Assembly (NCBI GenBank): GCA_945643635.1
Contig: CALZFC010000267.1
Coordinates: 930,001-994,000 of the forward strand
Reading direction: 5' to 3'
Origin: Allodiplogaster sudhausi
Taxonomy: Eukaryota; Nematoda; Chromadorea; Rhabditida; Diplogasteridae
DNA length: 64,000 nt
Both the position numbers and the translations under genes were made by a program. Below, in pieces: positions 23,882 to 64,000 of the stretch (positions are counted from its first letter, which is position 1; the number at the start of each line of letters is the position of its first letter). The notes beneath the pieces were generated by a model. That model was not told where the DNA came from. It did no database searches and saw only the letters and a list, made by a program, of their open reading frames with translations.

Positions 23882-24078
23882 AAAAAGAATGAAAAAATTC
23901 TTGAAATCCTTGAAAATGTAAAAAGTCGTTTAAAATAAAGCAAAATTCTAGAAATCTGTTTAAGAAAGAAAACGTTGAGCTAGAGCTTGCCACAGAGAGA
24001 GTGGATTCTGAAATGTGAAAGCGTTTACAAAAAAAAAGAAAATAGAATTCTTGAATTCCTTCAAAATGGAAAAGGTTC

Positions 24079-24150
24079 AGGTCCCGGGGAGATTTGAACT
24101 CCCGTCGCAGGATTCAGAGTCCTGAGTGCTAACCGCAACACCACGGGACC
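24079..24150 (-). tRNA. tRNA-Gln (CTG), unit 1
   Basis: Acceptor GGTCCCG pairs with CGGGACC. The anticodon arm CAGGA-CTCTGAA-TCCTG gives anticodon CTG, the T arm is GGGAG-TTCAAAT-CTCCC, and the discriminator is T. These 72 bases without intron define the array consensus. This copy has T for the conserved A of the D arm (GTTGCGG), which may weaken it. Confidence 0.85.
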
Positions 24151-24216
24151 GATGTTTGACAATGAGTGAAGGGAGTAAATAGAACAAAATTTCTAATTGA
24201 ACATGAAAAAGATTTC

Positions 24217-24298
24217 TGACGAGAGTGGGATCCGAACCCACGCCTCCGAAGAGACTGGTGCCTTAAACCAGCGCCTTGGACCGCTCCGCCATCTCGCC
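24217..24298 (-). tRNA. tRNA-Leu (AAG), unit 1
   Basis: Class II tRNA of 82 bases: acceptor GGCGAGA with TCTCGTC, anticodon arm CTGGT-TTAAGGC-ACCAG giving AAG, long variable arm TCTCTTCGGA, B box GGTTCGAATCC in the consensus. This copy has two changes, GGTTCGGATCC in the T loop and GGCGGAGCGG in the D arm. Confidence 0.85.
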
Positions 24299-24543
24299 AC
24301 GGATGAAAGAGAGAAAGGAGGATTCTGTAATGTGAAGTTGTTCGTACAAAAAGAATGAAAAATTCTTGAAATCCTTGAAAATGTAAAAAGTCGTTTAAAA
24401 TAAAGTAAAATTCTATAAATCTGTTTAAGAAAGAAAACGTTGAGCCAGAGCTTGTCACAGAGAGAGTGGATTCTGAAATGTGAAAGAGTTTACAAAAAAA
24501 AAGAAAATAAAATTCTTGAATTCCTTCAAAATGGAAAAGGTTC

Positions 24544-24615
24544 AGGTCCCGGGGAGATTTGAACTCCCGTCGCAGGATTCAGAGTCCTGAGTGCTAACCG
24601 CTACACCACGGGACC
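24544..24615 (-). tRNA. tRNA-Gln (CTG), unit 2
   Basis: Consensus. Confidence 0.95.
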
Positions 24616-24681
24616 GATGTTTGACAATGGGTGAATGGAGTAAATAGAACAAAATTTCTAATTGAACATGAAAAAGATTTC

Positions 24682-24763
24682 TGACGAGAGTGGGATTCGA
24701 ACCCACGCCTCCGAAGAGACTGGTGCCTTAAACCAGCGCCTTGGACCGCTCGGCCATCTCGCC
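24682..24763 (-). tRNA. tRNA-Leu (AAG), unit 2
   Basis: Consensus. Confidence 0.95.
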
Positions 24764-24922
24764 ACGGAAAGTCGTTTAAAATAAAGTAAAATTCTATAAT
24801 TCTGTTTAAGAAAGAAAACGTTGAGACAGAGCTTGCCACAGAGAGAGTGGATTCTGAAATGTTAAAGCGTTCACAAAAAAAAAGAAAATAAAATTCTTGA
24901 ATTCCTTCAAAATAAAAGGTTC

Positions 24923-24994
24923 AGGTCCCGGGGAGATTTGAACTCCCGTCGCAGGATTCAGAGTCTTGAGTGCTAACCGCTACACCACGGGACC
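24923..24994 (-). tRNA. tRNA-Gln (CTG), unit 3
   Basis: One anticodon-stem mismatch (CAAGA opposite TCCTG). Confidence 0.85.
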
Positions 24995-25060
24995 GATGTT
25001 TGACAATGAGTGAAGGGAGTAAATAGAACAAAATTTCTAATTGAACATGAAAAAGATTTC

Positions 25061-25142
25061 TGACGAGAGTGGGATTCGAACCCACGCCTCCGAAGAGACT
25101 GGTGCCTTAAACCAGCGCCTTGGACCGCTCGGCCATCTCGCC
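25061..25142 (-). tRNA. tRNA-Leu (AAG), unit 3
   Basis: Consensus. Confidence 0.95.
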
Positions 25143-25384
25143 ACGGATGATAGAGAGAAGGGGGATTCTGTAATGTGAAGTTGTTCGTACAAAAAGAATG
25201 AAAAATTCTTGAAATCCTTGAAAATGTAAAAAGTCGTTTAAAATAAAGAAAAATTCTAGAAATCTGTTTAAGAAAGAAAAGTTGAGCCAGAGCTTGCCAC
25301 AGAGAGAGTGGATTCTGAAATGTGAAAGCGTTTACAAAAAAAAGAAAATAAAATTTTTGAATTCCTTCAAAATGGAAAAGGTTC

Positions 25385-25456
25385 AGGTCCCGGGGAGATT
25401 TGAACTCCCGCCGCAGGATTCAGAGTCCTGAGTGCTAACCACTACAGCACGGGACC
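25385..25456 (-). tRNA. tRNA-Gln (CTG), unit 4
   Basis: Changes in the D arm (TGCTGTAGTGG) and the variable loop. Confidence 0.85.
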
Positions 25457-25522
25457 GATGTTTGACAATGAGTGAAAGGAGTAAATAGAACAAAATTTCT
25501 AATTGAACATGAAAAAGATTTC

Positions 25523-25604
25523 TGACGAGTGTGGGATTCGAACCCACGCCTCCGAAGGGACTGGTGCCTTAAACCAGCGCCTTGGACCGCTCGGCCATCT
25601 CGCC
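25523..25604 (-). tRNA. tRNA-Leu (AAG), unit 4
   Basis: Acceptor mismatch (CACTCGTC) and one variable-arm change. Confidence 0.85.
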
Positions 25605-25846
25605 ACGGATGAAAGAGAGAAAGGGGGATTCTGTAATGTGAAGTTGTTCGTACAAAAAGAATGAAAAATTCTTGAAATCCTTGAAAATGTAAAAAGTCGT
25701 TTAAAATAAAGAAAAATTCTATAAATCTGTTTAAGAAAGAAAACGTTGAGCCAGAGCTTGCCACAGCGAGAGTGGATTCTGAAATATGAAAGCGTTTACA
25801 AAAAAAAGAAAATAAAATTCTTGAATTCCTTCAAAATAAAAGGTTC

Positions 25847-25918
25847 AGGTCCCGGGGAGATTTGAACTCCCGTCGCAGGATTCAGAGTCCTGAGTGCTAA
25901 CCGCTACACCACGGGACC
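25847..25918 (-). tRNA. tRNA-Gln (CTG), unit 5
   Basis: Consensus. Confidence 0.95.
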
Positions 25919-25984
25919 GATGTTTGACAATCAGTGAGAGGAGTAAATTGAACAAAATTTCTAATTGAACATGAAAAAGATTTC

Positions 25985-26034
25985 TGACGAGAGTGGGATT
26001 CGAACCCACGCCTCCGAAGAGACTGGTGCCTTAA
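25985..26034 (-). pseudogene. tRNA-Leu (AAG), unit 5, 3' part of split gene
   Basis: Cut at the anticodon loop by the TTAA-flanked element; the other part is 28322-28357. Confidence 0.95.
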
Positions 26035-28321
<2,287 letters not shown>

Positions 28322-28357
28322 TTAAACCAGCGCCTTGGACCGCTCGGCCATCTCGCC
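28322..28357 (-). pseudogene. tRNA-Leu (AAG), unit 5, 5' part of split gene
   Basis: Starts with the duplicated TTAA, then the normal D arm and acceptor strand. Confidence 0.95.
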
Positions 28358-28600
28358 ACGGATGATAGAGAGAAAGGGGATTCAGTAATGTGAAGTTGTT
28401 CATACAAAAAGAATGAAAAATTCTGGAAATCCTTGAAAATGTAAAAAGTCGTTTAAAATAAAGTAAAATTCTAGAAATCTGTTTAAGAAAGAAAAGTTGA
28501 GCCAGAGCTTGCCACAGAGAGAGTGGATTCTGAAATGTGAAAGCGTTTACAAAAAAAAAGAAAACAAAATTTTTGAATTTCTTCAAAATGGAAAAGGTTC

Positions 28601-28672
28601 AGGTCCCGGGGAGATTTGAACTCCCGTCGCAGGATTCAGAGTCCTGAGTGCTAACCACTACAACACGGGACC
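28601..28672 (-). tRNA. tRNA-Gln (CTG), unit 6
   Basis: D-arm changes (TGTTGTAGTGG). Confidence 0.85.
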
Positions 28673-28738
28673 GATGTTTGACAATGAGTGAAAGGAGTAA
28701 ATAGAACAAAATTTCTAATTGAACATGAAAAAGATTTC

Positions 28739-28820
28739 TGACGAGTGTGGGATTCGAACCCACGCCTCCGAAGAGACTGCTGCCTTAAACCAGCGCCTTG
28801 GACCGCTCGGCCATCTCGCC
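28739..28820 (-). tRNA. tRNA-Leu (AAG), unit 6
   Basis: Acceptor mismatch as in unit 4 and GCAGCAGTC instead of GCACCAGTC, an anticodon-stem change. Confidence 0.8.
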
Positions 28821-29065
28821 ACGGATGAAAGAGAGAAAGGGGGATTCTGTAATGTGAAGTTGTTCGTACAAAAAGAATGAAAAATTCTTGAATTCCTTGA
28901 AAATGTAAAAAGTCGTTTAAAATAAAATAAAATTCAATAAATCTGTTTAAGAAAGAAAACGTTGAGCCAGAGCTTGCCACAGAGAGAGTGGATTCTGAAA
29001 TGTGAAAGCGTTTACAAAAAAAAAGAAAATAAAATTCTTGAATTCCTTCAAAATGGATAAGGTTC

Positions 29066-29137
29066 AGGTCCCGGGGAGATTTGAACTCCCGTTGCAGGAT
29101 TCAGAGTCCTGAGTGCTAACCGCTACACCACGGTACC
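29066..29137 (-). tRNA. tRNA-Gln (CTG), unit 7
   Basis: 5' acceptor reads GGTACCG, one mismatch; variable-loop change. Confidence 0.85.
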
Positions 29138-29203
29138 GATGTTTGACAATGAGTGAAGGGAGTAAATAGAACAAAATTTCTAATTGAACATGAAAAAGAT
29201 TTC

Positions 29204-29285
29204 TGACGAGAGTGGGATCCGAACCCACGCCTCCGAAGAGACTGGTGCCTTAAACCAGCGCCTTGGACCGCTCCGCCATCTCGCC
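29204..29285 (-). tRNA. tRNA-Leu (AAG), unit 7
   Basis: Same T-loop and D-arm changes as unit 1. Confidence 0.85.
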
Positions 29286-29530
29286 ACGGATGAAAGAGAG
29301 AAAGGGGGATTCTGTAATGTGAAGTTGTTCGTACAAAAAGAATGAAAAATTCTTGAAATCCTTGAAAATGTAAAAAGTCGTTTAAAATAAAGTAAAATTC
29401 TATAAATCTGTTTAAGAAAGAAAACGTTGAGCCAGAGCTTGCCACAAAGAGAGTGGATTCTGAAATGTGAAAGCGTTTACAAAAAAAAAGAAAATAAAAT
29501 TCTTGAATTCCTTCAAAATGGATAAGGTTC

Positions 29531-29602
29531 AGGTCCCGGGGAGATTTGAACTCCCGTTGCAGGATTCAGAGTCCTGAGTGCTAACAGCTACACCACGGTA
29601 CC
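29531..29602 (-). tRNA. tRNA-Gln (CTG), unit 8
   Basis: GGTACCG acceptor mismatch plus a D-loop change. Confidence 0.82.
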
Positions 29603-29668
29603 GATGTTTGACAATGAGTGAAGGGAGTAAATAGAACAAAATTTCTAATTGAACATGAAAAAGATTTC

Positions 29669-29750
29669 TGACGAGAGTGGGATCCGAACCCACGCCTCCG
29701 AAGAGACTGGTGCCTTAAACCAGCGCCTTGGACCGCTCCGCCATCTCGCC
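29669..29750 (-). tRNA. tRNA-Leu (AAG), unit 8
   Basis: Same changes as unit 1. Confidence 0.85.
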
Positions 29751-29908
29751 ACGGAAAGTCGTTTAAAATAAAGTAAAATTCTATAATTCTGTTTAAGAAA
29801 GAAAACGTTGAGACAGAGCTTGCCACAGAGAGAGTGGATTCTGAAATGTGAAAGCGTTTACAAAAAAAAGAAAATAAAATTCTTGAATTCCTTCAAAATA
29901 AAAGGTTC

Positions 29909-29980
29909 AGGTCCCGGGGAGATTTGAACTCCCGTCGCAGGATTCAGGGTCCAGAGTGCTAACCGCTACACCACGGGACC
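29909..29980 (-). tRNA. tRNA-Gln (CTG), unit 9
   Basis: Anticodon arm reads CTGGA-CCCTGAA, so the invariant T before the anticodon is C and one stem pair is lost. Confidence 0.75.
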
Positions 29981-30046
29981 GATGTTTGACAATGAGTGAA
30001 GGGAGTAAATAGAACAAAATTTCTAATTGAACATGAAAAAGATTTC

Positions 30047-30128
30047 TGACGAGAGTGGGATTCGAACCCACGCCTCCGAAGAGACTGGTGCCTTAAACCA
30101 GCGCCTTGGACCGCTCGGCCATCTCACC
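30047..30128 (-). tRNA. tRNA-Leu (AAG), unit 9
   Basis: 5' acceptor GGTGAGA, one changed pair. Confidence 0.88.
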
Positions 30129-30287
30129 ACGGAAAGTCGTTTAAAATAAAGTAAAATTCTATAAATCTGTTTAAGAAAGAAAACGTCGAGCCAGAGCTTG
30201 AAACAGAGAGAGTGGATTCTGAAATATGAAAGCGTTTAGAAAAAAAAAGAAAATAAAATTCTTGAATTCCTTCAAAATAAAATGTTC

Positions 30288-30359
30288 AGGTCCCGGGGAG
30301 ATTTGAACTCCCGTCGCAGGATTCAGAGTCCTGAGTGCTAACCGCTACACCACGGGACC
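30288..30359 (-). tRNA. tRNA-Gln (CTG), unit 10
   Basis: Consensus. Confidence 0.95.
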
Positions 30360-30425
30360 GATGTTTGACAATCAGTGAGGGGAGTAAATTGAACACAATT
30401 TCTAATTGAACATGAAAAAGATTTC

Positions 30426-30507
30426 TGACGAGAGTGGGATTCGAACCCACGCCTCCGAAGAGACTGGTGCCTTAAACCTGCGCCTTGGACCGCTCGGCCA
30501 TCTCGCC
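30426..30507 (-). tRNA. tRNA-Leu (AAG), unit 10
   Basis: One anticodon-stem change (GCAGGTTTAAGG). Confidence 0.88.
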
Positions 30508-30750
30508 ACGGATGATAGAGAGAAAGGGGATTCAGTAATGTGAAGTTGTTCATACAAAAAGAATGAAAAATTCTGGAAATCCTTGAAAATGTAAAAAGTC
30601 GTTTAAAATAAAGCAAAATTCTAGAAATCTGTTTAAGAAAGAAAAGTTGAGCCAGAGCTTGCCACAGAGAGAGTGGATTCTGAAATGTGAAAGCGTTTAC
30701 AAAAAAAAAGAAAATACAATTTTTGAATTCCTTCAAAATGGAAAAGGTTC

Positions 30751-30828
30751 AGGTCCCGGGGAGATTTGAACTCCCGTCGCAGGATTCAGAGTCCTGACAA
30801 TGAGTGCTAACCGCTACACCACGGGACC
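30751..30828 (-). tRNA. tRNA-Gln (CTG) insertion variant, unit 11
   Basis: 78 bases: CATTGT inserted between the D stem and the anticodon stem. Probably not functional. Confidence 0.6.
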
Positions 30829-30894
30829 GATGTTTGACAATGAGTGAAGGGACTAAATAAAACAAAATTTCTAATTGAACATGAAAAAGATTTC

Positions 30895-30976
30895 TGACGA
30901 GAGTGGGATCCGAACCCACGCCTCCGAAGAGACTGGTGCCTTAAACCAGCGCCTTGGACCGCTCGGCCATCTCGCC
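30895..30976 (-). tRNA. tRNA-Leu (AAG), unit 11
   Basis: T loop GGTTCGGATCC; otherwise consensus. Confidence 0.9.
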
Positions 30977-31255
30977 ACGGATGAAAGAGAGAAAGGGAGG
31001 GGGATTCTGTAATGTGAAGTTGTTCATACAAAAAGAATGAAAAATTCTTGAAATCCTTGAAAATGTAAAAAGTCGTTTAAAATAAAGCAAAATTCTAGAA
31101 ATCTGTTTGAGAAAGAAAAGTTGAGCCAGAGCTTGCCACAGAGAGAGTGGATTCTGAAATGTGAAAGCGTTTCAAAAAATAAGAAAATAAAATTATTGAA
31201 TTCCTTCAAAATGGAAAAGGTTCAGCCGCGCGATTAATCTTACATTGTGTCAATG

Positions 31256-31520
31256 ACACGTCGTCGACACACAGTCATGACCAATTTGTATGTCATTGAC
31301 ACCGGTCAATGACAGAAAACAAAACCGCCTATCTTAATACACATGGGTCGCGACCAAACCAAATTGTGTCACTGAAACGGTCATGACCGCAGAATAATAA
31401 TTTGGTGGTCATGTCCACTCGGCCGCCACCCATGGTCATGACCAAAGCGAGATAGTACACATTTGTGAGAGATGCAGAGCGACACGCTCATGGATATCAC
31501 CGTGGGTCATGACCAAATTC
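31256..31520. repeat. Left subterminal palindrome array
   Basis: Repeated GTCATGACC, GTCAATGACA and variants, which mirror those at 36060-36175. Possible transposase-binding sites by analogy with other transposons. Confidence 0.7.
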
Positions 31521-31686
31521 ATGATTTCAACTGAATGTGTGACCCAACGTTCACTTTATACCGTAATTTTTAAAAGCGCTTTGCGCGGGATGAATTTCAT
31601 TTGTCAGCCAGCTAGCAGTCTTAAATCTTCTTGAGTGTTGTTGTTTTGCAGCTTAATTTTTGTTATTTTTACTTCATTTTAACAGG

Positions 31687-32935
31687 ATGTCGTCGCCCGC
31701 ACTCTCAGGCGACCAACAATCACCATTGCTCCGCGAAAGTCTGAATGGCGCCCGCTGCCGCCGCCAAAAAATTCTGGTTATCTGCGCTTACGCTTATAGG
31801 TTGTTGTGGCACCATGATTTTCTCAAACGCAAAGCTTGACTTGTTCGTATTCTACTCGATTCATTTCTGATCCACGGCATAAGCATATTTTTTTTATTCC
31901 TACCGCCTTCCTTCCTATATGAATGATGAATTATTTCCAATGCATGATGAAATTAGCTTTCGTCTTAAGCAGGGCAAGCCGCTCGCTGTCCGTGTACCGC
32001 TCGACGCAGATCTTCCGCCAGATCAAGAGCTCCGGACGCTAACTAAGCATTCGGGGCGAAGAGCGCATTGTTCAGGTATGCACTATGCTATTAGATTTAC
32101 TTTCGTTAAAGCCACAATTCAGTGCTAAACTTAGGTACTTATTTGGTTTTGCATTATGGCGGAATAGTTTATGCTCCATGAAAATTGTAGCTTTTTATGC
32201 TTCATGATTATCAAAAGAAATGTTTGCAATATTTCAACATGCTGTATTCATATGTCTGTTCAGCTTGTTATTGGAGTGGCCGACTCGACATTCACGAGGA
32301 GTCAAGGTGAACTGCTTCGATGGCGCGGCAAGATGCTTGGCGCCAGCGCCAGGAAGAGCAGGGGCTGCTGTCGCGCCCGCAGGATAATAAGGTGCACTTT
32401 ACAATGTGCCCAGGTTACTTGTAATTAAAAAATACTACATGGCTTATTTTTTTGTTCTCTTTTTTTAAACCAAAATATCGGAGGGTTACCAAAGTATGTA
32501 AGGAATATTTAACCCTCTATTTTCTTCCTTACCACTTTTGTCAATGTAGAAGATCTCTTTTTAAGGTCCGCTGTTTCTGAGCTTCGAGCCCGCGCGAGAT
32601 GGACACGTTTATGTGGCCAGCAAGACAGCGAAGGGGGGCGAGATGGTCAATGTCAGTTTACACGGTTATATTTAATTACACTTCTTTATTATCAATTTGT
32701 GCTCTAGATATGATTTAAAAATTAGTTTCCTCATTACCTTAGTAATGCTTCGACATCCATCAACGTTACGGTGCACAGTGTCCTCTCCCATTCGATACAG
32801 TAACCGAGATTCTCTGCTCAGGACTGTTCGACCGTGAAGCGTGCTCAAGAACAGGGCTATCTGCATGAGGCGTTGCTGGAAAGGCGGAAGACGATGAAGA
32901 ACCGATCACATCGATTGAACCGATCACATCGATAA
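31687..32935 (+). CDS. Exon-like fragments inside the CAG-flanked transposon, unresolved
   Basis: An ATG frame at 31687-31839 (50 codons) starts MSSPALSGDQ. Later GC-rich islands follow pyrimidine-AG sites: one at about 31981-32074 ending TTCAG/GTATGC, one from 32263 after TGTTCAG, one from 32566 after TTTTTAAG, and one from 32820 after CTGCTCAG ending at a TAA near 32935. Candidate pieces include PLFLSFEPARDGHVYV and EQGYLHEALLERRKTM. I could not make all phases agree. This may be the element's own gene, possibly decayed. No transposase motif recognised. Confidence 0.35.
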
Positions 32936-33314
32936 TGTTTGTGATAACTGACTAGAGATGGGTACTGTAGCTTTGATCGTAAAGCTTCTCTTGTTACCTA
33001 ATGGTTGTTATTACTAGTTGGTTAATCTCATGTTTGTTAATTGAATAAATGCCTTGTTCCTTAATGACTTGCTTCCAAAACGAGAACGCTTGGCCGAAGT
33101 CGATGCAGCACCGACGTAATTCCGGTGACTAGAAAGTGGGAAGCAGACGTGATCATCCCGGAGAGACTGCATTCCTTCTAGGTGTCCGGAATGTTTGCAA
33201 CACAGTAGATTGGCAGCAGCCAAGCAAGCCAGCTATTAAGACTGCGGTGCATTCGTGAAGACTGTTTGGATGGAGCATGATTAGAAACGTGCAGGGCGTT
33301 ATGTCTTCATCATT

Positions 33315-33427
33315 CTCTCTCTTTCTCTCTCGCCCTCTCTCTCTCTCTATCTGTCTCTCTATCTGTCTCTCTCTCTCTCTCTCTCTATCGCTGTCTCTTC
33401 CTCTCTATCTCTCTGTCTCCGTCTCTT

Positions 33428-33476
<49 letters not shown>

Positions 33477-33479
33477 CTC
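33315..33479. repeat. (TC)n microsatellite
   Basis: Long CT-rich run with minor interruptions. Confidence 0.95.
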
Positions 33480-33613
33480 CTAGCGGTATCAATAAGTTGT
33501 TGTTCATGGATTACAAAACCGAAAAATTGTAGTCCAACAAATAGCACATGAAAAAAGCTGCTCCGAAGACTCCCTTGTTAAAAGAAAAAGAATGAAAAGT
33601 TGTATCATCTTTC

Positions 33614-52944: not shown

Positions 52945-53026
52945 TGACGAGAGTGGGATTCGAACCCACGCCTCCGAAGAGACTGGTGCCTTAAACCAGC
53001 GCCTTGGACCGCTCGGCCATCTCGCC
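52945..53026 (-). tRNA. tRNA-Leu (AAG), unit 49
   Basis: Consensus. Confidence 0.95.
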
Positions 53027-53270
53027 ACGGATGAAAGAGAGAAAGGGGATTCTGTAATGTGAAGTTGTTCATACAAAAAGAATGAAAAATTCTTGAAATC
53101 CTTGAAAATGTAAAAAGTCGTTTAAAATAAAGCAAAATTCTAGAAATCTGTTTAAGAAATAAAACGTTGAGCCAGAGCTTGCCACAGAGAGAGTGGATTC
53201 TGAAATGTGAAAGCGTTTACAAAAAAAAAGAAAATAAAATTCTTGAATTCCTTCAAAATGGAAAAGGTTC

Positions 53271-53342
53271 AGGTCCCGGGGAGATTTGAACTCCCGTCGC
53301 AGGATTCAGAGTCCTGAGTGCTAACCGCTACACCACGGGACC
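53271..53342 (-). tRNA. tRNA-Gln (CTG), unit 50
   Basis: Consensus. Confidence 0.95.
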
Positions 53343-53407
53343 GATGTTTGACTATGAGTGAAGGGAGTAAATAGAACAAAATTTCTAATTGAACATGAAA
53401 AGATTTC

Positions 53408-53489
53408 TGACGAGAGTGGGATTCGAACCCACGCCTCCGAAGAGACTGGTGCCTTAAACCAGCGCCTTGGACCGCTCGGCCATCTCGCC
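53408..53489 (-). tRNA. tRNA-Leu (AAG), unit 50
   Basis: Consensus; TTTT terminator. Confidence 0.95.
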
Positions 53490-53736
53490 ACGGATGAAAG
53501 AGAGAAAGGGGATTCTGTAATGTGAAGTTGTTCATACAAAAAGAATGAAAAATTCTTGAAATCCTTGAAAATGTAAAAAGTCGTTTAAAATAAAGCAAAA
53601 TTCTAGAAATCTGTTTAAGAAATAAAACGTTGAGCCAGAGCTTGCCACAGAGAGAGAGAGTGGATTCTGAAATGTGAAAGCGTTTCAAAAAATAAGAAAA
53701 TAAAATAATTGAATTCCTTCAAAATGGAAAAGGTTC

Positions 53737-53814
53737 AGGTCCCGGGGAGATTTGAACTCCCGCCGCAGGATTCAGAGTCCTGACAATGAGTGCTAACCGC
53801 TACACCACGGGACC
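53737..53814 (-). tRNA. tRNA-Gln (CTG) insertion variant, unit 51
   Basis: As unit 47. Confidence 0.6.
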
Positions 53815-53880
53815 GATGTTTGACAATGAGTGAAAGGAGTAAATAGAACAAAATTTCTAATTGAACATGAAAAAGATTTC

Positions 53881-53962
53881 TGACGAGAGTGGGATTCGAA
53901 CCCACGCCTCCGAAGAGACTGGTGCCTTAAACCAGCGCCTTGGACCGCTCGGCCATCTCGCC
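53881..53962 (-). tRNA. tRNA-Leu (AAG), unit 51
   Basis: Consensus. Confidence 0.95.
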
Positions 53963-54190
53963 ACGGATGAAAGAGAGAAAGGGGATTCTGTAATGTGAAG
54001 TTGTTCATACAAAAAGAATGAAAAATTCTTGAAATCCTTAAAAAGTCGTTTAAAATAAAGCAAAATTCTAGAAATCTGTTTAAGAAAGAAAAGTTGAGCC
54101 AGAGCTTGCCTCAGAGAGAGTGGATTCTGAAATGTGAAAGCGTTTACAAAAAAAAAAAATTCTTGTATTCCTTCAAAATGGAAAAGGTTC

Positions 54191-54262
54191 AGGTCCCGGG
54201 GAGATTTGAACTCCCGTCGCAGGATTCAGAGTCCTGAGTGCTAACCGCTACACCACGGGACC
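54191..54262 (-). tRNA. tRNA-Gln (CTG), unit 52
   Basis: Consensus. Confidence 0.95.
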
Positions 54263-54329
54263 GATGTTTGACAATGAGTGAAGGGAGTAAATAGAACAAA
54301 ATTTCTAATTGAACATAAAAAAAGATTTC

Positions 54330-54411
54330 TGACGAGAGTGGGATTCGAACCCACGCCTCCGAAGAGACTGGTGCCTTAAACCAGCGCCTTGGACCGCTCG
54401 GCCATCTCGCC
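54330..54411 (-). tRNA. tRNA-Leu (AAG), unit 52
   Basis: Consensus. Confidence 0.95.
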
Positions 54412-54647
54412 ACGGTTGAAAGAGAGAAAGGGGATTCTGTAATGTGAAGTTGTTCATACAAAAAGAATGAAAAATTCTTGAAATCCTTGAAAATGTAAAA
54501 AGTCGTTTAAAATAAAGCAAATTCTAGAAATCTGTTTAAGAAAGAAAAGTTGAGCCAGAGCTTGCCTCAGAGAGAGTGGATTCTGAAATGTGAAAGCGTT
54601 TACAAAAAAAATAAAATGCTTGAATTCCTTCAAAATGGAAAAGGTTC

Positions 54648-54719
54648 AGGTCCCGGGGAGATTTGAACTCCCGTCGCAGGATTCAGAGTCCTGAGTGCTA
54701 ACCGCTACACCACGGGACC
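54648..54719 (-). tRNA. tRNA-Gln (CTG), unit 53
   Basis: Consensus. Confidence 0.95.
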
Positions 54720-54785
54720 GATGTTTGACAATGAGTGAAGGGAGTAAATAGAACAAAATTTCTAATTGAACATGAAAAAGATTTC

Positions 54786-54867
54786 TGACGAGAGTGGGAT
54801 TCGAACCCACGCCTCCGAAGAGACTGGTGCCTTAAACCAGCGCCTTGGACCGCTCGGCCATCTCGCC
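54786..54867 (-). tRNA. tRNA-Leu (AAG), unit 53
   Basis: Consensus. Confidence 0.95.
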
Positions 54868-55113
54868 ACGGATGAAAGAGAGAAAGGGGATTCTGTAATG
54901 TGAAGTTGTTCATACAAAAAGAATGAAAAATTCTTGAAATCCTTGAAAATGTAAAAAGTCGTTTAAAATAAAGCAAAATTCTAGAAATCTGTTTAAGAAA
55001 TAAAACGTTGAGCCAGAGCTTGCCACAGAGAGAGAGAGTGGATTCTGAAATGTGAAAGCGTTTCAAAAAAAAGAAAATAAAATAATTGAATTCCTTCAAA
55101 ATGGAAAAGGTTC

Positions 55114-55191
55114 AGGTCCCGGGGAGATTTGAACTCCCGTCGCAGGATTCAGAGTCCTGACAATGAGTGCTAACCGCTACACCACGGGACC
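55114..55191 (-). tRNA. tRNA-Gln (CTG) insertion variant, unit 54
   Basis: CATTGT insertion with the normal variable loop. Confidence 0.6.
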
Positions 55192-55257
55192 GATGTTTGA
55201 CAATGAGTGAAAGGAGTAAATAGAACAAAATTTCTAATTGAACATGAAAAAGATTTC

Positions 55258-55339
55258 TGACGAGAGTGGGATTCGAACCCACGCCTCCGAAGAGACTGGT
55301 GCCTTAAACCAGCGCCTTGGACCGCTCGGCCATCTCGCC
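55258..55339 (-). tRNA. tRNA-Leu (AAG), unit 54
   Basis: Consensus. Confidence 0.95.
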
Positions 55340-55583
55340 ACGGATGAAAGAGAGAAAGGGGATTCTGTAATGTGAAGTTGTTCATACAAAAAGAATGAAA
55401 AATTCTTGAAATCCTTGAAAATGTAAAAAGTCGTTTAAAATAAAGCAAAATTCTAGAAATCTGTTTAAGAAATAAAACGTTGAGCCAGAGCTTGCCACAG
55501 AGAGAGTGGATTCTGAAATGTGAAAGCGTTTACAAAAAAAAAGAAAATAAAATTCTTGAATTCCTTCAAAATGGAAAAGGTTC

Positions 55584-55655
55584 AGGTCCCGGGGAGATTT
55601 GAACTCCCGTCGCAGGATTCAGAGTCCTGAGTGCTAACCGCTACACCACGGGACC
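55584..55655 (-). tRNA. tRNA-Gln (CTG), unit 55
   Basis: Consensus. Confidence 0.95.
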
Positions 55656-55720
55656 GATGTTTGACAATGAGTGAAGGGAGTAAATAGAACAAAATTTCTA
55701 ATTGAACATGAAAAGATTTC

Positions 55721-55802
55721 TGACGAGAGTGGGATTCGAACCCACGCCTCCGAAGAGACTGGTGCCTTAAACCAGCGCCTTGGACCGCTCGGCCATCTCG
55801 CC
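55721..55802 (-). tRNA. tRNA-Leu (AAG), unit 55
   Basis: Consensus; TTTT terminator. Confidence 0.95.
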
Positions 55803-56048
55803 ACGGATGAAAGAGAGAAAGGGGATTCTGTAATGTGAAGTTGTTCATACAAAAAGAATGAAAAATTCTTGAAATCCTTGAAAATGTAAAAAGTCGTTTA
55901 AAATAAAGCAAAATTCTAGAAATCTGTTTAAGAAATAAAACGTTGAGCCAGAGCTTGCCACAGAGAGAGAGAGTGGATTCTGAAATGTGAAAGCGTTTCA
56001 AAAAAAAGAAAATAAAATAATTGAATTCCTTCAAAATGGAAAAGGTTC

Positions 56049-56126
56049 AGGTCCCGGGGAGATTTGAACTCCCGCCGCAGGATTCAGAGTCCTGACAATG
56101 AGTGCTAACCGCTACACCACGGGACC
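56049..56126 (-). tRNA. tRNA-Gln (CTG) insertion variant, unit 56
   Basis: As unit 47. Confidence 0.6.
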
Positions 56127-56192
56127 GATGTTTGACAATGAGTGAAAGGAGTAAATAGAATAAAATTTCTAATTGAACATGAAAAAGATTTC

Positions 56193-56274
56193 TGACGAGA
56201 GTGGGATTCGAACCCACGCCTCCGAAGAGACTGGTGCCTTAAACCAGCGCCTTGGACCGCTCGGCCATCTCGCC
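56193..56274 (-). tRNA. tRNA-Leu (AAG), unit 56
   Basis: Consensus. Confidence 0.95.
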
Positions 56275-56517
56275 ACGGATGAAAGAGAGAAAGGGGATTC
56301 TGTAATGTGAAGTTGTTCATACAAAAAGAATGAAAAATTCTTGAAATCCTTGAAAATGTAAAAAGTCGTTTAAAATAAAGCAAAATTCTAGAAATCTTTT
56401 TAAGAAATAAAACGTTGAGCCAGAGCTTGCCACAGAGAGAGTGGATTCTGAAATGTGAAAGCGTTTACAAAAAAAAGAAAATAAAATTCTTGAATTCCTT
56501 CAAAATGGAAAAGGTTC

Positions 56518-56589
56518 AGGTCCCGGGGAGATTTGAACTCCCGTCGCAGGATTCAGAGTCCTGAGTGCTAACCGCTACACCACGGGACC
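56518..56589 (-). tRNA. tRNA-Gln (CTG), unit 57
   Basis: Consensus. Confidence 0.95.
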
Positions 56590-56654
56590 GATGTTTGACT
56601 ATGAGTGAAGGGAGTAAATAGAACAAAATTTCTAATTGAACATGAAAAGATTTC

Positions 56655-56736
56655 TGACGAGAGTGGGATTCGAACCCACGCCTCCGAAGAGACTGGTGCC
56701 TTAAACCAGCGCCTTGGACCGCTCGGCCATCTCGCC
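56655..56736 (-). tRNA. tRNA-Leu (AAG), unit 57
   Basis: Consensus; TTTT terminator. Confidence 0.95.
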
Positions 56737-56983
56737 ACGGATGAAAGAGAGAAAGGGGATTCTGTAATGTGAAGTTGTTCATACAAAAAGAATGAAAAAT
56801 TCTTGAAATCCTTGAAAATGTAAAAAGTCGTTTAAAATAAAGCAAAATTCTAGAAATCTGTTTAAGAAATAAAACGTTGAGCCAGAGCTTGCCACAGAGA
56901 GAGAGAGTGGATTCTGAAATGTGAAAGCGTTTCAAAAAATAAGAAAATAAAATAATTGAATTCCTTCAAAATGGAAAAGGTTC

Positions 56984-57061
56984 AGGTCCCGGGGAGATTT
57001 GAACTCCCGTCGCAGGATTCAGAGTCCTGACAATGAGTGCTAACCGCTACACCACGGGACC
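56984..57061 (-). tRNA. tRNA-Gln (CTG) insertion variant, unit 58
   Basis: As unit 54. Confidence 0.6.
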
Positions 57062-57127
57062 GATGTTTGACAATGAGTGAAAGGAGTAAATAGAACAAAA
57101 TTTCTAATTGAACATGAAAAAGATTTC

Positions 57128-57209
57128 TGACGAGAGTGGGATTCGAACCCACGCCTCCGAAGAGACTGGTGCCTTAAACCAGCGCCTTGGACCGCTCGGC
57201 CATCTCGCC
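57128..57209 (-). tRNA. tRNA-Leu (AAG), unit 58
   Basis: Consensus. Confidence 0.95.
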
Positions 57210-57453
57210 ACGGATGAAAGAGAGAAAGGGGATTCTGTAATGTGAAGTTGTTCATACAAAAAGAATGAAAAATTCTTGAAATCCTTGAAAATGTAAAAAG
57301 TCGTTTAAAATAAAGCAAAATTCTAGAAATCTGTTTAAGAAATAAAACGTTGAGCCAGAGCTTGCCACAGAGAGAGTGGATTCTGAAATGTGAAAGCGTT
57401 TACAAAAAAAAAGAAAATAAAATTCTTGAATTCCTTCAAAATGGAAAAGGTTC

Positions 57454-57525
57454 AGGTCCCGGGGAGATTTGAACTCCCGTCGCAGGATTCAGAGTCCTGA
57501 GTGCTAACCGCTACACCACGGGACC
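57454..57525 (-). tRNA. tRNA-Gln (CTG), unit 59
   Basis: Consensus. Confidence 0.95.
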
Positions 57526-57590
57526 GATGTTTGACAATGAGTGAAGGGAGTAAATAGAACAAAATTTCTAATTGAACATGAAAAGATTTC

Positions 57591-57672
57591 TGACGAGAGT
57601 GGGATTCGAACCCACGCCTCCGAAGAGACTGGTGCCTTAAACCAGCGCCTTGGACCGCTCGGCCATCTCGCC
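57591..57672 (-). tRNA. tRNA-Leu (AAG), unit 59
   Basis: Consensus; TTTT terminator. Confidence 0.95.
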
Positions 57673-57919
57673 ACGGATGAAAGAGAGAAAGGGGATTCTG
57701 TAATGTGAAGTTGTTCATACAAAAAGAATGAAAAATTCTTGAAATCCTTGAAAATGTAAAAAGTCGTTTAAAATAAAGCAAAATTCTAGAAATCTGTTTA
57801 AGAAATAAAACGTTGAGCCAGAGCTTGCCACAGAGAGAGAGAGTGGATTCTGAAATGTGAAAGCGTTTCAAAAAATAAGAAAATAAAATAATTGAATTCC
57901 TTCAAAATGGAAAAGGTTC

Positions 57920-57997
57920 AGGTCCCGGGGAGATTTGAACTCCCGCCGCAGGATTCAGAGTCCTGACAATGAGTGCTAACCGCTACACCACGGGACC
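57920..57997 (-). tRNA. tRNA-Gln (CTG) insertion variant, unit 60
   Basis: As unit 47. Confidence 0.6.
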
Positions 57998-58063
57998 GAT
58001 GTTTGACAATGAGTGAAAGGAGTAAATAGAACAAAATTTCTAATTGAACATGAAAAAGATTTC

Positions 58064-58145
58064 TGACGAGAGTGGGATTCGAACCCACGCCTCCGAAGAG
58101 ACTGGTGCCTTAAACCAGCGCCTTGGACCGCTCGGCCATCTCGCC
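58064..58145 (-). tRNA. tRNA-Leu (AAG), unit 60
   Basis: Consensus. Confidence 0.95.
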
Positions 58146-58389
58146 ACGGATGAAAGAGAGAAAGGGGATTCTGTAATGTGAAGTTGTTCATACAAAAAGA
58201 ATGAAAAATTCTTGAAATCCTTGAAAATGTAAAAAGTCGTTTAAAATAAAGCAAAATTCTAGAAATCTGTTTAAGAAATAAAACGTTGAGCCAGAGCTTG
58301 CCACAGAGAGAGTGGATTCTGAAATGTGAAAGCGTTTACAAAAAAAAAGAAAATAAAATTCTTGAATTCCTTCAAAATGGAAAAGGTTC

Positions 58390-58461
58390 AGGTCCCGGGG
58401 AGATTTGAACTCCCGTCGCAGGATTCAGAGTCCTGAGTGCTAACCGCTACACCACGGGACC
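58390..58461 (-). tRNA. tRNA-Gln (CTG), unit 61
   Basis: Consensus. Confidence 0.95.
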
Positions 58462-58526
58462 GATGTTTGACTATGAGTGAAGGGAGTAAATAGAACAAAA
58501 TTTCTAATTGAACATGAAAAGATTTC

Positions 58527-58608
58527 TGACGAGAGTGGGATTCGAACCCACGCCTCCGAAGAGACTGGTGCCTTAAACCAGCGCCTTGGACCGCTCGGCC
58601 ATCTCGCC
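58527..58608 (-). tRNA. tRNA-Leu (AAG), unit 61
   Basis: Consensus; TTTT terminator. Confidence 0.95.
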
Positions 58609-58855
58609 ACGGATGAAAGAGAGAAAGGGGATTCTGTAATGTGAAGTTGTTCATACAAAAAGAATGAAAAATTCTTGAAATCCTTGAAAATGTAAAAAGT
58701 CGTTTAAAATAAAGCAAAATTCTAGAAATCTGTTTAAGAAATAAAACGTTGAGCCAGAGCTTGCCACAGAGAGAGAGAGTGGATTCTGAAATGGGAAAGC
58801 GTTTCAAAAAATAAGAAAATAAAATAATTGAATTCCTTCAAAATGGAAAAGGTTC

Positions 58856-58932
58856 AGGTCCCGGGGAGATTTGAACTCCCGCGCAGGATTCAGAGTCCTG
58901 ACAATGAGTGCTAACCGCTACACCACGGGACC
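58856..58932 (-). tRNA. tRNA-Gln (CTG) insertion variant, unit 62
   Basis: CATTGT insertion plus a one-base variable-loop deletion (77 bases). Confidence 0.55.
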
Positions 58933-58998
58933 GATGTTTGACAATGAGTGAAAGGAGTAAATAGAACAAAATTTCTAATTGAACATGAAAAAGATTTC

Positions 58999-59080
58999 TG
59001 ACGAGAGTGGGATTCGAACCCACGCCTCCGAAGAGACTGGTGCCTTAAACCAGCGCCTTGGACCGCTCGGCCATCTCGCC
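58999..59080 (-). tRNA. tRNA-Leu (AAG), unit 62
   Basis: Consensus. Confidence 0.95.
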
Positions 59081-59324
59081 ACGGATGAAAGAGAGAAAGG
59101 GGATTCTGTAATGTGAAGTTGTTCATACAAAAAGAATGAAAAATTCTTGAAATCCTTGAAAATGTAAAAAGTCGTTTAAAATAAAGCAAAATTCTAGAAA
59201 TCTGTTTAAGAAATAAAACGTTGAGCCAGAGCTTGCCACAGAGAGAGTGGATTCTGAAATGTGAAAGCGTTTACAAAAAAAAAGAAAATAAAATTCTTGA
59301 ATTCCTTCAAAATGGAAAAGGTTC

Positions 59325-59396
59325 AGGTCCCGGGGAGATTTGAACTCCCGTCGCAGGATTCAGAGTCCTGAGTGCTAACCGCTACACCACGGGACC
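59325..59396 (-). tRNA. tRNA-Gln (CTG), unit 63
   Basis: Consensus. Confidence 0.95.
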
Positions 59397-59461
59397 GATG
59401 TTTGACTATGAGTGAAGGGAGTAAATAGAACAAAATTTCTAATTGAACATGAAAAGATTTC

Positions 59462-59543
59462 TGACGAGAGTGGGATTCGAACCCACGCCTCCGAAGAGAC
59501 TGGTGCCTTAAACCAGCGCCTTGGACCGCTCGGCCATCTCGCC
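59462..59543 (-). tRNA. tRNA-Leu (AAG), unit 63
   Basis: Consensus; TTTT terminator. Confidence 0.95.
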
Positions 59544-59790
59544 ACGGATGAAAGAGAGAAAGGGGATTCTGTAATGTGAAGTTGTTCATACAAAAAGAAT
59601 GAAAAATTCTTGAAATCCTTGAAAATGTAAAAAGTCGTTTAAAATAAAGCAAAATTCTAGAAATCTGTTTAAGAAATAAAACGTTGAGCCAGAGCTTGCC
59701 ACAGAGAGAGAGAGTGGATTCTGAAATGTGAAAGCGTTTCAAAAAATAAGAAAATAAAATAATTGAATTCCTTCAAAATGGAAAAGGTTC

Positions 59791-59868
59791 AGGTCCCGGG
59801 GAGATTTGAACTCCCGCCGCAGGATTCAGAGTCCTGACAATGAGTGCTAACCGCTACACCACGGGACC
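59791..59868 (-). tRNA. tRNA-Gln (CTG) insertion variant, unit 64
   Basis: As unit 47. Confidence 0.6.
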
Positions 59869-59934
59869 GATGTTTGACAATGAGTGAAAGGAGTAAATAG
59901 AACAAAATTTCTAATTGAACATGAAAAAGATTTC

Positions 59935-60016
59935 TGACGAGAGTGGGATTCGAACCCACGCCTCCGAAGAGACTGGTGCCTTAAACCAGCGCCTTGGACC
60001 GCTCGGCCATCTCGCC
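59935..60016 (-). tRNA. tRNA-Leu (AAG), unit 64
   Basis: Consensus. Confidence 0.95.
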
Positions 60017-60254
60017 ACGGATGAAAGAGAGAAAGGGGATTCTGTAATGTGAAGTTGTTCATACAAAAAGAATGAAAAATTCTTGAAATCCTTGAAAATG
60101 TAAAAAGTCGTTTAAAATAAAGCAAAATTCTAGAAATCTGTTTAAGAAATAAAACGTTGAGCCAGAGCTTGCCACAGAGAGAGTGGATTCTGAAATGTGA
60201 AAGCGTTTACAAAAAAAAAGAAAATAAAATTCTTGAATTCCTTCAAAATGGAAA

Positions 60255-60326
60255 AGGTCCCGGGGAGATTTGAACTCCCGTCGCAGGATTCAGAGTCCTG
60301 AGTGCTAACCGCTACACCACGGGACC
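60255..60326 (-). tRNA. tRNA-Gln (CTG), unit 65
   Basis: Consensus body; five or six bases of the 3' flank are deleted, so the T-run now abuts the tRNA end. Confidence 0.92.
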
Positions 60327-60391
60327 GATGTTTGACTATGAGTGAAGGGAGTAAATAGAACAAAATTTCTAATTGAACATGAAAAGATTTC

Positions 60392-60473
60392 TGACGAGAG
60401 TGGGATTCGAACCCACGCCTCCGAAGAGACTGGTGCCTTAAACCAGCGCCTTGGACCGCTCGGCCATCTCGCC
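60392..60473 (-). tRNA. tRNA-Leu (AAG), unit 65
   Basis: Consensus; TTTT terminator. Confidence 0.95.
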
Positions 60474-60720
60474 ACGGATGAAAGAGAGAAAGGGGATTCT
60501 GTAATGTGAAGTTGTTCATACAAAAAGAATGAAAAATTCTTGAAATCCTTGAAAATGTAAAAAGTCGTTTAAAATAAAGCAAAATTCTAGAAATCTGTTT
60601 AAGAAATAAAACGTTGAGCCAGAGCTTGCCACAGAGAGAGAGAGTGGATTCTGAAATGTGAAAGCGTTTCAAAAAATAAGAAAATAAAATAATTGAATTC
60701 CTTCAAAATGGAAAAGGTTC

Positions 60721-60798
60721 AGGTCCCGGGGAGATTTGAACTCCCGTCGCAGGATTCAGAGTCCTGACAATGAGTGCTAACCGCTACACCACGGGACC
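60721..60798 (-). tRNA. tRNA-Gln (CTG) insertion variant, unit 66
   Basis: As unit 54. Confidence 0.6.
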
Positions 60799-60864
60799 GA
60801 TGTTTGACAATGAGTGAAAGGAGTAAATAGAACAAAATTTCTAATTGAACATGAAAAAGATTTC

Positions 60865-60946
60865 TGACGAGAGTGGGATTCGAACCCACGCCTCCGAAGA
60901 GACTGGTGCCTTAAACCAGCGCCTTGGACCGCTCGGCCATCTCGCC
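60865..60946 (-). tRNA. tRNA-Leu (AAG), unit 66
   Basis: Consensus. Confidence 0.95.
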
Positions 60947-61193
60947 ACGGATGAAAGAGAGAAAGGGGATTCTGTAATGTGAAGTTGTTCATACAAAAAG
61001 AATGAAAAATTCTTGAAATCCTTGAAAATGTAAAAAGTCGTTTAAAATAAAGCAAAATTCTAGAAATCTGTTTAAGAAATAAAACGTTGAGCCAGAGCTT
61101 GCCACAGAGAGAGAGAGTGGATTCTGAAATGGGAAAGCGTTTCAAAAAATAAGAAAATAAAATAATTGAATTCCTTCAAAATGGAAAAGGTTC

Positions 61194-61271
61194 AGGTCCC
61201 GGGGAGATTTGAACTCCCGCCGCAGGATTCAGAGTCCTGACAATGAGTGCTAACCGCTACACCACGGGACC
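61194..61271 (-). tRNA. tRNA-Gln (CTG) insertion variant, unit 67
   Basis: As unit 47; two insertion units in a row here break the alternation. Confidence 0.6.
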
Positions 61272-61337
61272 GATGTTTGACAATGAGTGAAAGGAGTAAA
61301 TAGAACAAAATTTCTAATTGAACATGAAAAAGATTTC

Positions 61338-61419
61338 TGACGAGAGTGGGATTCGAACCCACGCCTCCGAAGAGACTGGTGCCTTAAACCAGCGCCTTGG
61401 ACCGCTCGGCCATCTCGCC
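61338..61419 (-). tRNA. tRNA-Leu (AAG), unit 67
   Basis: Consensus. Confidence 0.95.
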
Positions 61420-61663
61420 ACGGATGAAAGAGAGAAAGGGGATTCTGTAATGTGAAGTTGTTCATACAAAAAGAATGAAAAATTCTTGAAATCCTTGAAA
61501 ATGTAAAAAGTCGTTTAAAATAAAGCAAAATTCTAGAAATCTGTTTAAGAAATAAAACGTTGAGCCAGAGCTTGCCACAGAGAGAGTGGATTCTGAAATG
61601 TGAAAGCGTTTACAAAAAAAAAGAAAATAAAATTCTTGAATTCCTTCAAAATGGAAAAGTTTC

Positions 61664-61882: not shown

Positions 61883-62126
61883 ACGGATGAAAGAGAGAAA
61901 GGGGATTCTGTAATGTGAAGTTGTTCATACAAAAAGAATGAAAAATTCTTGAAATCCTTGAAAATGTAAAAAGTCGTTAAAAATAAAGCAAAATTCTAGA
62001 AATCTGTTTAAGAAATAAAACGTTGAGCCAGAGCTTGCCACAGAGAGAGTGGATTCTGAAATGTGAAAGCGTTTACAAAAAAAAAGAAAATAAAATTCTT
62101 GAATTCCTTCAAAATGGAAAAGGTTC

Positions 62127-62198
62127 AGGTCCCGGGGAGATTTGAACTCCCGTCGCAGGATTCAGAGTCCTGAGTGCTAACCGCTACACCACGGGACC
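62127..62198 (-). tRNA. tRNA-Gln (CTG), unit 69
   Basis: Consensus. Confidence 0.95.
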
Positions 62199-62263
62199 GA
62201 TGTTTGACAATGAGTGAAGGGAGTAAATAGAACAAAATTTCTAATTGAACATGAAAAGATTTC

Positions 62264-62345
62264 TGACGAGAGTGGGATTCGAACCCACGCCTCCGAAGAG
62301 ACTGGTGCCTTAAACCAGCGCCTTGGACCGCTCGGCCATCTCGCC
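62264..62345 (-). tRNA. tRNA-Leu (AAG), unit 69
   Basis: Consensus; TTTT terminator. Confidence 0.95.
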
Positions 62346-62590
62346 ACGGATGAAAGAGAGAAAGGGGATTCTGTAATGTGAAGTTGTTCATACAAAAAGA
62401 ATGAAAAATTCTTGAAATCCTTGAAAATGTAAAAAGTCGTTTAAAATAAAGCAAAATTCTAGAAATCTGTTTAAGAAATAAAACGTTGAGCCAGAGCTTG
62501 CCACAGAGAGAGTGGATTCTGAAATGTGAAAGCGTTTACAAAAAAAAAAGAAAATAAAATTCTTGAATTCCTTCAAAATGGAAAAGGTTC

Positions 62591-62662
62591 AGGTCCCGGG
62601 GAGATTTGAACTCCCGTCGCAGGATTCAGAGTCCTGAGTGCTAACCGCTACACCACGGGACC
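62591..62662 (-). tRNA. tRNA-Gln (CTG), unit 70
   Basis: Consensus. Confidence 0.95.
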
Positions 62663-62728
62663 GATGTTTGACAATGAGTGAAGGGAGTAAATAGAACAAA
62701 ATTTCTAATTGAACATGAAAAAGATTTC

Positions 62729-62810
62729 TGACGAGAGTGGGATTCGAACCCACGCCTCCGAAGAGACTGGTGCCTTAAACCAGCGCCTTGGAACGCTCGG
62801 CCATCTCGCC
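62729..62810 (-). tRNA. tRNA-Leu (AAG), unit 70
   Basis: One D-loop change (GAGCGTTCCAAGG). Confidence 0.9.
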
Positions 62811-63053
62811 ACGGATGAAAGAGAGAAAGGGGATTCTGTAATGTGAAGTTGTTCATACAAAAAGAATGAAAAATTCTTGAAATCCTTGAAAATGTAAAAA
62901 GTCGTTTAAAATAAAGCAAAATTCTAGAAATCTGTTTAAGAAATAAAACGTTGAGCCAGAGCTTGCCACAGAGAGAGTGGATTCTGAAATGTGAAAGAGT
63001 TTACAAAAAAAAGAAAATAAAATGCTTGAATTCCTTCAAAATGGAAAAGGTTC

Positions 63054-63125
63054 AGGTCCCGGGGAGATTTGAACTCCCGTCGCAGGATTCAGAGTCCTGA
63101 GTGCTAACCGCTACACCACGGGACC
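63054..63125 (-). tRNA. tRNA-Gln (CTG), unit 71
   Basis: Consensus. Confidence 0.95.
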
Positions 63126-63191
63126 GATGTTTGACAATGAGTGAAGGGAGTAAATAGAACAAAATTTCTAATTGAACATGAAAAAGATTTC

Positions 63192-63273
63192 TGACGAGAG
63201 TGGGATTCGAACCCACGCCTCCGAAGAGACTGGTGCCTTAAACCAGCGCCTTGGACCGCTCGGCCATCTCGCC
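63192..63273 (-). tRNA. tRNA-Leu (AAG), unit 71
   Basis: Consensus. Confidence 0.95.
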
Positions 63274-63522
63274 ACGGATGAAAGAGAGAAAGGGGATTCT
63301 GTAATGTGAAGTTGTTCATACAAAAAGAATGAAAAATTCTTGAAATCCTTGAAAATGTAAAAAGTCGTTTAAAATAAAGCAAAATTCTAGAAATCTGTTT
63401 AAGAAATAAAACGTTGAGCCAGAGCTTGCCACAGAGAGAGAGAGAGTGGATTCTGAAATGTGAAAGCGTTTCAAAAAATAAGAAAATAAAATTATTGAAT
63501 TCCTTCAAAATGGAAAAGGTTC

Positions 63523-63600
63523 AGGTCCCGGGGAGATTTGAACTCCCGCCGCAGGATTCAGAGTCCTGACAATGAGTGCTAACCGCTACACCACGGGACC
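63523..63600 (-). tRNA. tRNA-Gln (CTG) insertion variant, unit 72
   Basis: As unit 47. Confidence 0.6.
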
Positions 63601-63666
63601 GATGTTTGACAATGAGTGAAGGGAGTAAATAGAACAAAATTTCTAATTGAACATGAAAAAGATTTC

Positions 63667-63748
63667 TGACGAGAGTGGGATTCGAACCCACGCCTCCGAA
63701 GAGACTGGTGCCTTAAACCAGCGCCTTGGAACGCTCGGCCATCTCGAA
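63667..63748 (-). tRNA. tRNA-Leu (AAG), unit 72, 5' acceptor mutated
   Basis: The 5' end reads TTCGAGA instead of GGCGAGA, which loses the first two pairs; D-loop change as in unit 70. Confidence 0.7.
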
Positions 63749-63985
63749 ACGGTTGGAAGATAGAAAATGGATTCTGTAATGTGAAGTTGTTCACACAAAA
63801 AGAATGAAAAAATTCTGGAAATCCTTGAAAATGTAAAAAGTCGTTTAAAATAAAGCAAAATTCTAGAAATCTGTTTAAGAAATAAAACGTTGAGCCAGAG
63901 CTTGCCACAGAGAGAGTGGATTCTGAAATGAGAAAGAGTTAAAAAAAAATAAAATTCTTGAATTCCTTCAAAATGGAAAAGGTTC

Positions 63986-64000
63986 AGGTCCCGGGGAGAT
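63986..64000 (-). tRNA. tRNA-Gln, unit 73, cut by window end
   Basis: Only the 3' 15 bases (acceptor and part of the T arm) are inside the window. Confidence 0.85.

Follow-up and report, generated by a model that had tools for sequence, protein, structure and literature searches.

Large tandem arrays of transfer RNA (tRNA) genes are already known from several lineages, and the tRNA-Leu(AAG)/tRNA-Gln(CTG) array described here, from contig CALZFC010000267.1 of the nematode Allodiplogaster sudhausi (positions 930,001 to 994,000; "the window" is this whole stretch of 64,000 nucleotides), represents no new type but adds an informative case. In the parts of the sources covered, nearly all tRNA genes of Entamoeba lie in arrays which take up more than 10% of the genome, have short tandem repeats between the genes, and reach a copy number beyond apparent translation needs (PMC2652664). 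The Ser-Tyr-Tyr (SYY) cluster of Arabidopsis is silenced in most tissues, and 13 of its 54 clustered Tyr copies yield tRNA-like RNAs (PMC12308677). The preliminary description of this DNA had named Entamoeba, Xenopus and zebrafish as carriers of such arrays, and for Entamoeba and the teleost fishes this stands, but the list is incomplete as Arabidopsis and human also belong to it.

Comparison with these systems is limited to the sections of each paper that were covered. Like the Entamoeba arrays, ours strings together, head to tail, units that each hold at least two tRNA genes and evolve in concert; it differs in consisting of a single pair, in an internal duplication of 82 bp in its spacers, and in its visible defective copies, whereas clear pseudogene evidence is not reported in the covered part of the Entamoeba work (PMC2652664). 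The SYY cluster also has tandem units of two tRNA kinds, with a homogeneous core and variable flanks richer in minor and pseudogene copies, and we see a similar arrangement; however, the tRNAs, lineage and scale are different, and silencing and tissue-specific expression were measured there while we have the sequence alone (PMC12308677). The human 1q23.3 tRNA variable number tandem repeat is likewise a large and variable animal repeat (9–43 units), but it has 7.3-kb GC-rich CTCF-binding units in place of our units of about 460 bp (PMC4041453). Teleost fishes and Nematostella have clusters of at least 50 tRNA genes, including mixed parallel pairs such as Arg/Thr, in a survey which drew on five Caenorhabditis species as the nematodes of its synteny analysis and in which a Leu–Gln array was not found in the parts covered (PMC2888827). 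The claim that none had been described for this pair in nematodes agrees with our own literature search, in which we looked for nematode tRNA arrays and for tRNA arrays in general and found none with a Leu–Gln pair among titles and the starts of abstracts (few subscription journals were covered). As the covered part of another source gives tRNA totals of 254 for Heterorhabditis bacteriophora and 659 for C. elegans (PMC3715494), 143 or more genes in one array would account for a considerable fraction of a complement like these.

The array covers at least 40,000 bases, over which a small two-tRNA unit recurs more than 70 times in nearly identical form. Its extent and two example genes with the consensus scores are as follows:

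23882–64000, minus strand: Leu(AAG)/Gln(CTG) tandem array, from ARAGORN, Rfam scores, Tandem Repeats Finder and unit intervals.
24544–24615, minus strand: example consensus tRNA-Gln(CTG), 66.6 bits against the Rfam tRNA model.
24682–24763, minus strand: example consensus tRNA-Leu(AAG), 56.9 bits against the same model.

Across the whole window ARAGORN found 72 complete Gln(CTG)-type and 71 complete Leu(AAG) genes, all 143 on the minus strand (24079–63749), and no other kind of tRNA. One additional Leu is divided by the first of two transposon-like inserts, and the right end of the window cuts a 73rd Gln which starts at 63986; as the last base of the window is inside this gene, the array continues past the window and all copy counts are lower bounds. 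In the order of transcription, each unit is made up of a long spacer, Leu, 64–66 bp and Gln, and most of the 69 uninterrupted unit-to-unit intervals (63/69) are 447–473 bp long, with the others at 378–379 bp (3/69) and 341–342 bp (3/69). Tandem Repeats Finder recognised the same stretch as arrays with periods of 341–465. The units are therefore head-to-tail direct repeats, each with complete tRNA genes, as expected of a tandem tRNA array, and without the two inserts (2287 + 4966 bp) they occupy 32,866 bp. The preliminary description was accurate in giving nearly 33 kb of units of about 460 bp with one tRNA of each kind on the same strand, and its figure of at least 73 repeats holds if partial units are counted. 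The commonest form is matched letter for letter by 45/72 Gln and 43/71 Leu genes, which rules out chance as an issue for the array. One unit compared by BLAST with positions 1–23881 of the window gave no convincing match (best E value 0.081), and exact 37- and 46-base tRNA patterns had zero matches in viral_contigs.

The features needed for tRNA production are retained in most copies, although 13/72 Gln and part of the Leu genes are impaired. All 143 genes score 39.0–66.6 bits, above the 29-bit Rfam gathering threshold for tRNA, and a check of 21 pairs per Gln and 20 per Leu found zero broken pairs in 49/72 and 50/71 genes, respectively (three 83-nt Leu copies were scored with 12 broken pairs through the frame shift caused by a 1-nt deletion, and these are not real breaks). 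Nearly all copies being pseudogenes, a concern raised earlier, is thus not what we find. The A box of the internal promoter, as defined by consensus patterns, was matched by 69/72 Gln and by 69/71 Leu genes, and the B box by 71/72 and 67/71. A run of at least four T residues is located within 30 nt of the 3' end of 71/72 Gln and 71/71 Leu genes, consistent with the separate RNA polymerase III stops claimed previously, and the sole Gln without one nearby is the gene at 36193 where the second insert has displaced the downstream flank.

The main defect is a 6-nt insertion in 13/72 Gln genes, one of which also lacks a base, for example:

51866–51943, minus strand: 78-nt Gln variant with ATTGTC inserted between the D arm and the anticodon arm (ARAGORN and predicted fold).

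The insertion follows CACTC within the gene and causes ARAGORN to call all 13 copies "tRNA-???" (cagg), and their Rfam scores are 41.3–47.1 bits. In the predicted fold the cloverleaf is kept but the anticodon arm is lengthened and bulged, and these copies would probably not decode normally. The sequence CACTCATTGTCA, which matches the insertion site CACTC plus ATTGTC, is present in the 5' leader of 62/72 Gln genes, making it natural to infer that the insertion was copied from the leader into the gene at position 26, perhaps by template switch or conversion.

Variation along the array is organised into local blocks, which we compared using an alignment of 70/72 units (the insert-bearing units 5 and 11 were excluded):

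24079–31225, minus strand: left edge, units 1–11, the most diverged and holding the three 378–379 bp units.
36193–44088, minus strand: units 12–29, with a 6/7-unit periodicity and one 341–342 bp unit per repeat (units 12, 19 and 25).
47305–50943, minus strand: units 37–44, with a 4-unit periodicity (periods 447, 460, 459, 459 / 447, 459, 458, 450).
51399–61663, minus strand: units 46–67, with a 2-unit periodicity seen in intervals, distances and the pairing check.

Mean distances for units 46–67 were 8.4 at a lag of two units vs 20.6 at a lag of one, for units 35–46 they were 8.6 at lag 4 vs 15.5, and for units 12–36 they were 30.5, 30.1 and 21.2 at lags 6, 7 and 13 vs 35.7. All 22 Leu genes in units 46–67 have the consensus sequence, and half of the Gln genes (11/22) have the 6-nt insertion, for the most part in alternate copies with the alternation broken twice (units 52–53 and 66–67). 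Substitutions from the consensus fall from 2.56% at the left edge (9 aligned units) to 1.44% in the middle (35) and 1.13% on the right (26). The last complete unit, unit 72 (63523–63990), is itself 3.3% diverged and 36 differences away from its nearest other unit, and the right edge of the array could therefore be close to the end of the window. Similarity within the array and its local blocks indicate concerted evolution, as in other tandem tRNA arrays, and the higher-order repeats plus a diverged edge are also characteristic of satellites (this refers to the left edge, the right edge being outside the window). The higher-order periods and decayed left edge are what would be expected if unequal exchange or conversion had been most active in the interior.

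On balance, and with moderate confidence, we suggest that the array most likely still supplies tRNAs, with the Leu–Gln pairs homogenised by exchange or conversion. The sequence pattern shows that an ancestral Leu–Gln gene pair was copied head to tail into an array which then grew and became homogenised, with local higher-order blocks and a decayed edge, presumably through unequal exchange and/or gene conversion. Retained internal promoters, cloverleaf and terminators would allow tRNA-Gln(CUG) and tRNA-Leu(IAG) to be produced from at least part of the copies, and the redundancy of the array may let defective copies persist and at times be amplified with the others. Nucleotide diversity is 0.0111 in Gln and 0.0125 in Leu, compared with 0.0230 in the short spacer and 0.0317 in the long spacer. 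In frequency tests that skipped columns absent from unit 70 or having fewer than 50 letters (thereby excluding the 6-nt insertion), variants found in at least five units occupied 2/154 gene sites vs 15/240 masked spacer sites (p = 0.021), and variant classes of 1–4 vs at least five units differed between genes and spacers in the masked data (p = 0.028). This offers a hint that, while copies are individually free to decay, decayed gene variants may spread less often than spacer variants.

Several observations weigh against tRNA supply. Only 27/71 pairs have both genes at consensus, a G2–G71 mismatch is found in 12/71 Leu genes, and the insertion-bearing Gln genes are probably defective. Singletons are equally dense in genes (22/154 sites) and masked spacer (30/240; p = 0.65), so that single copies have no visible protection, and the comparison of singleton with shared variants was non-significant (p = 0.10 unmasked and p = 0.14 masked). 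The five-copy threshold was also picked after seeing the data, independence between units does not hold, and when the 6-nt insertion was included among the common gene variants the result became p = 0.10 masked and 0.027 unmasked.

The chief rival of the tRNA-supply reading draws on much of this evidence. It holds that the array is a mostly silent and effectively neutral satellite, spread by recombination and packed into heterochromatin, with the cell's tRNAs coming from other loci, and we regard it as possible but doubtful. The equal input of mutations to genes and spacers, the co-amplification of a defective Gln to 13 copies, the satellite-like higher-order structure and decayed edge, and the two transposon-like inserts within tRNA genes would all be compatible with such a satellite, and analogues are provided, in the covered parts of those sources, by the proposed silence of many Entamoeba copies and by the Arabidopsis SYY cluster in most tissues. 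It accounts less readily for the structure, promoter boxes and terminators retained in most copies, and for common variants which look, if weakly, rarer in genes than in spacers. A further reading, in which the 2-unit blocks serve to keep up a second RNA polymerase III product without a decoding role, the 78-nt Gln being a regulatory RNA derived from tRNA or a decoy produced together with normal tRNA-Gln, seems improbable, and we give it the least weight of all.

A structural role for the RNA polymerase III genes, as a chromatin boundary, replication-fork barrier or chromosome-end structure, would suit the uniform orientation of all genes and has a parallel in the human tandem repeat, whose CTCF-binding units are described as a candidate boundary in the part of that paper covered (PMC4041453). 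We nonetheless consider it unlikely, since gene-like stretches reach right up to the left side of the array and the chromosome-end idea is itself stated as untested for Entamoeba in the covered text (PMC2652664). It is more unlikely still that the array is an assembly artefact, in which mis-assembly turned a small number of real units into many or haplotypes were left uncollapsed. Several units are identical by alignment distance (e.g. 48, 50, 57, 63 and 65), but copying of a few units would not be expected to give the variants seen among units, the two unlike inserts and the various block types, and the longest exact repeat within the array (1257 bp) is shorter than common long reads, which speaks indirectly against the artefact foreseen in the preliminary description.

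The sequence tags of the 78-nt Gln and of the G71 Leu would let tRNA sequencing reveal directly if genes in an array are put to use, a point not yet settled for Entamoeba. This one array also displays, along 40 kb, the steps from a tRNA gene pair to satellite-like DNA: blocks differ in size, the edge has decayed and taken up inserts, and amplification has spread a templated defect.

The long spacer contains an 82-bp direct duplication, A/A' (score 46 vs a best of 16 in 500 shuffles), with one copy 3' of Gln and the other 5' of Leu, and the 378–379 bp units are without the copy before Leu. The 67 bp between A and A' might be the remains of a lost Leu–Gln pair, a weakly supported suggestion given that the score was reached in 31/1000 and 15/1000 shuffles (69/1000 and 44/1000 with Gln included), and local matches between the duplication blocks and the Leu–Gln spacer were no better than the shuffle range.

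To the left of the array, a block of about 1.07 kb is present three times, near 20.2, 21.2 and 22.3 kb (20143–22570), with near-identical reading frames. It adjoins a hand-built model of a Cys/Thr-rich gene with a signal peptide (17398–19577). The hand-spliced model of this flanking gene (225 aa) matched zero proteins at E ≤ 0.001 among 214 candidates and zero Pfam families at E ≤ 0.1, and two exon-like stretches had below-cutoff matches to the nematode chemoreceptor families Srh (E = 0.0089) and Str (E = 0.012).

The "two transposons" reported earlier within the array correspond to two transposon-like inserts with TTAA and CAG duplications:

26035–28321, strand not assigned: insert 1, 2287 bp, with TTAA on both sides and imperfect terminal inverted repeats AGGAGCCG.../...CGGTTCCT.
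31226–36191, strand not assigned: insert 2, 4966 bp, with CAG on both sides and long terminal inverted repeats CCGCGCGATTAATCTTAC.

Insert 1 breaks a tRNA-Leu within its anticodon loop and includes an rps23 (uS12)-like, exon-like stretch (26868–28078). Positions 27429–27767 on the minus strand match PF00164, ribosomal protein S23/uS12 (E = 1.3e-14), and comparison of the S23-like stretch with S23 chains in PDB gave a best E value of 4.1e-17. Positions 26960–27110 on the same strand read by eye as the next part of S23, with zero matches for the submitted frames. The sequence of insert 1 suggests that a transposon has captured a ribosomal protein gene.

Insert 2 is placed at the 3' end of a tRNA-Gln, the gene whose terminator it has displaced. 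It has internal inverted arms near 33.65–34.38 kb and 35.22–35.79 kb, from which a large hairpin could form. The arms (33646–35788) are about 89–92% alike and are built of 87-bp and 16-bp tandem repeats on either side of a spacer.

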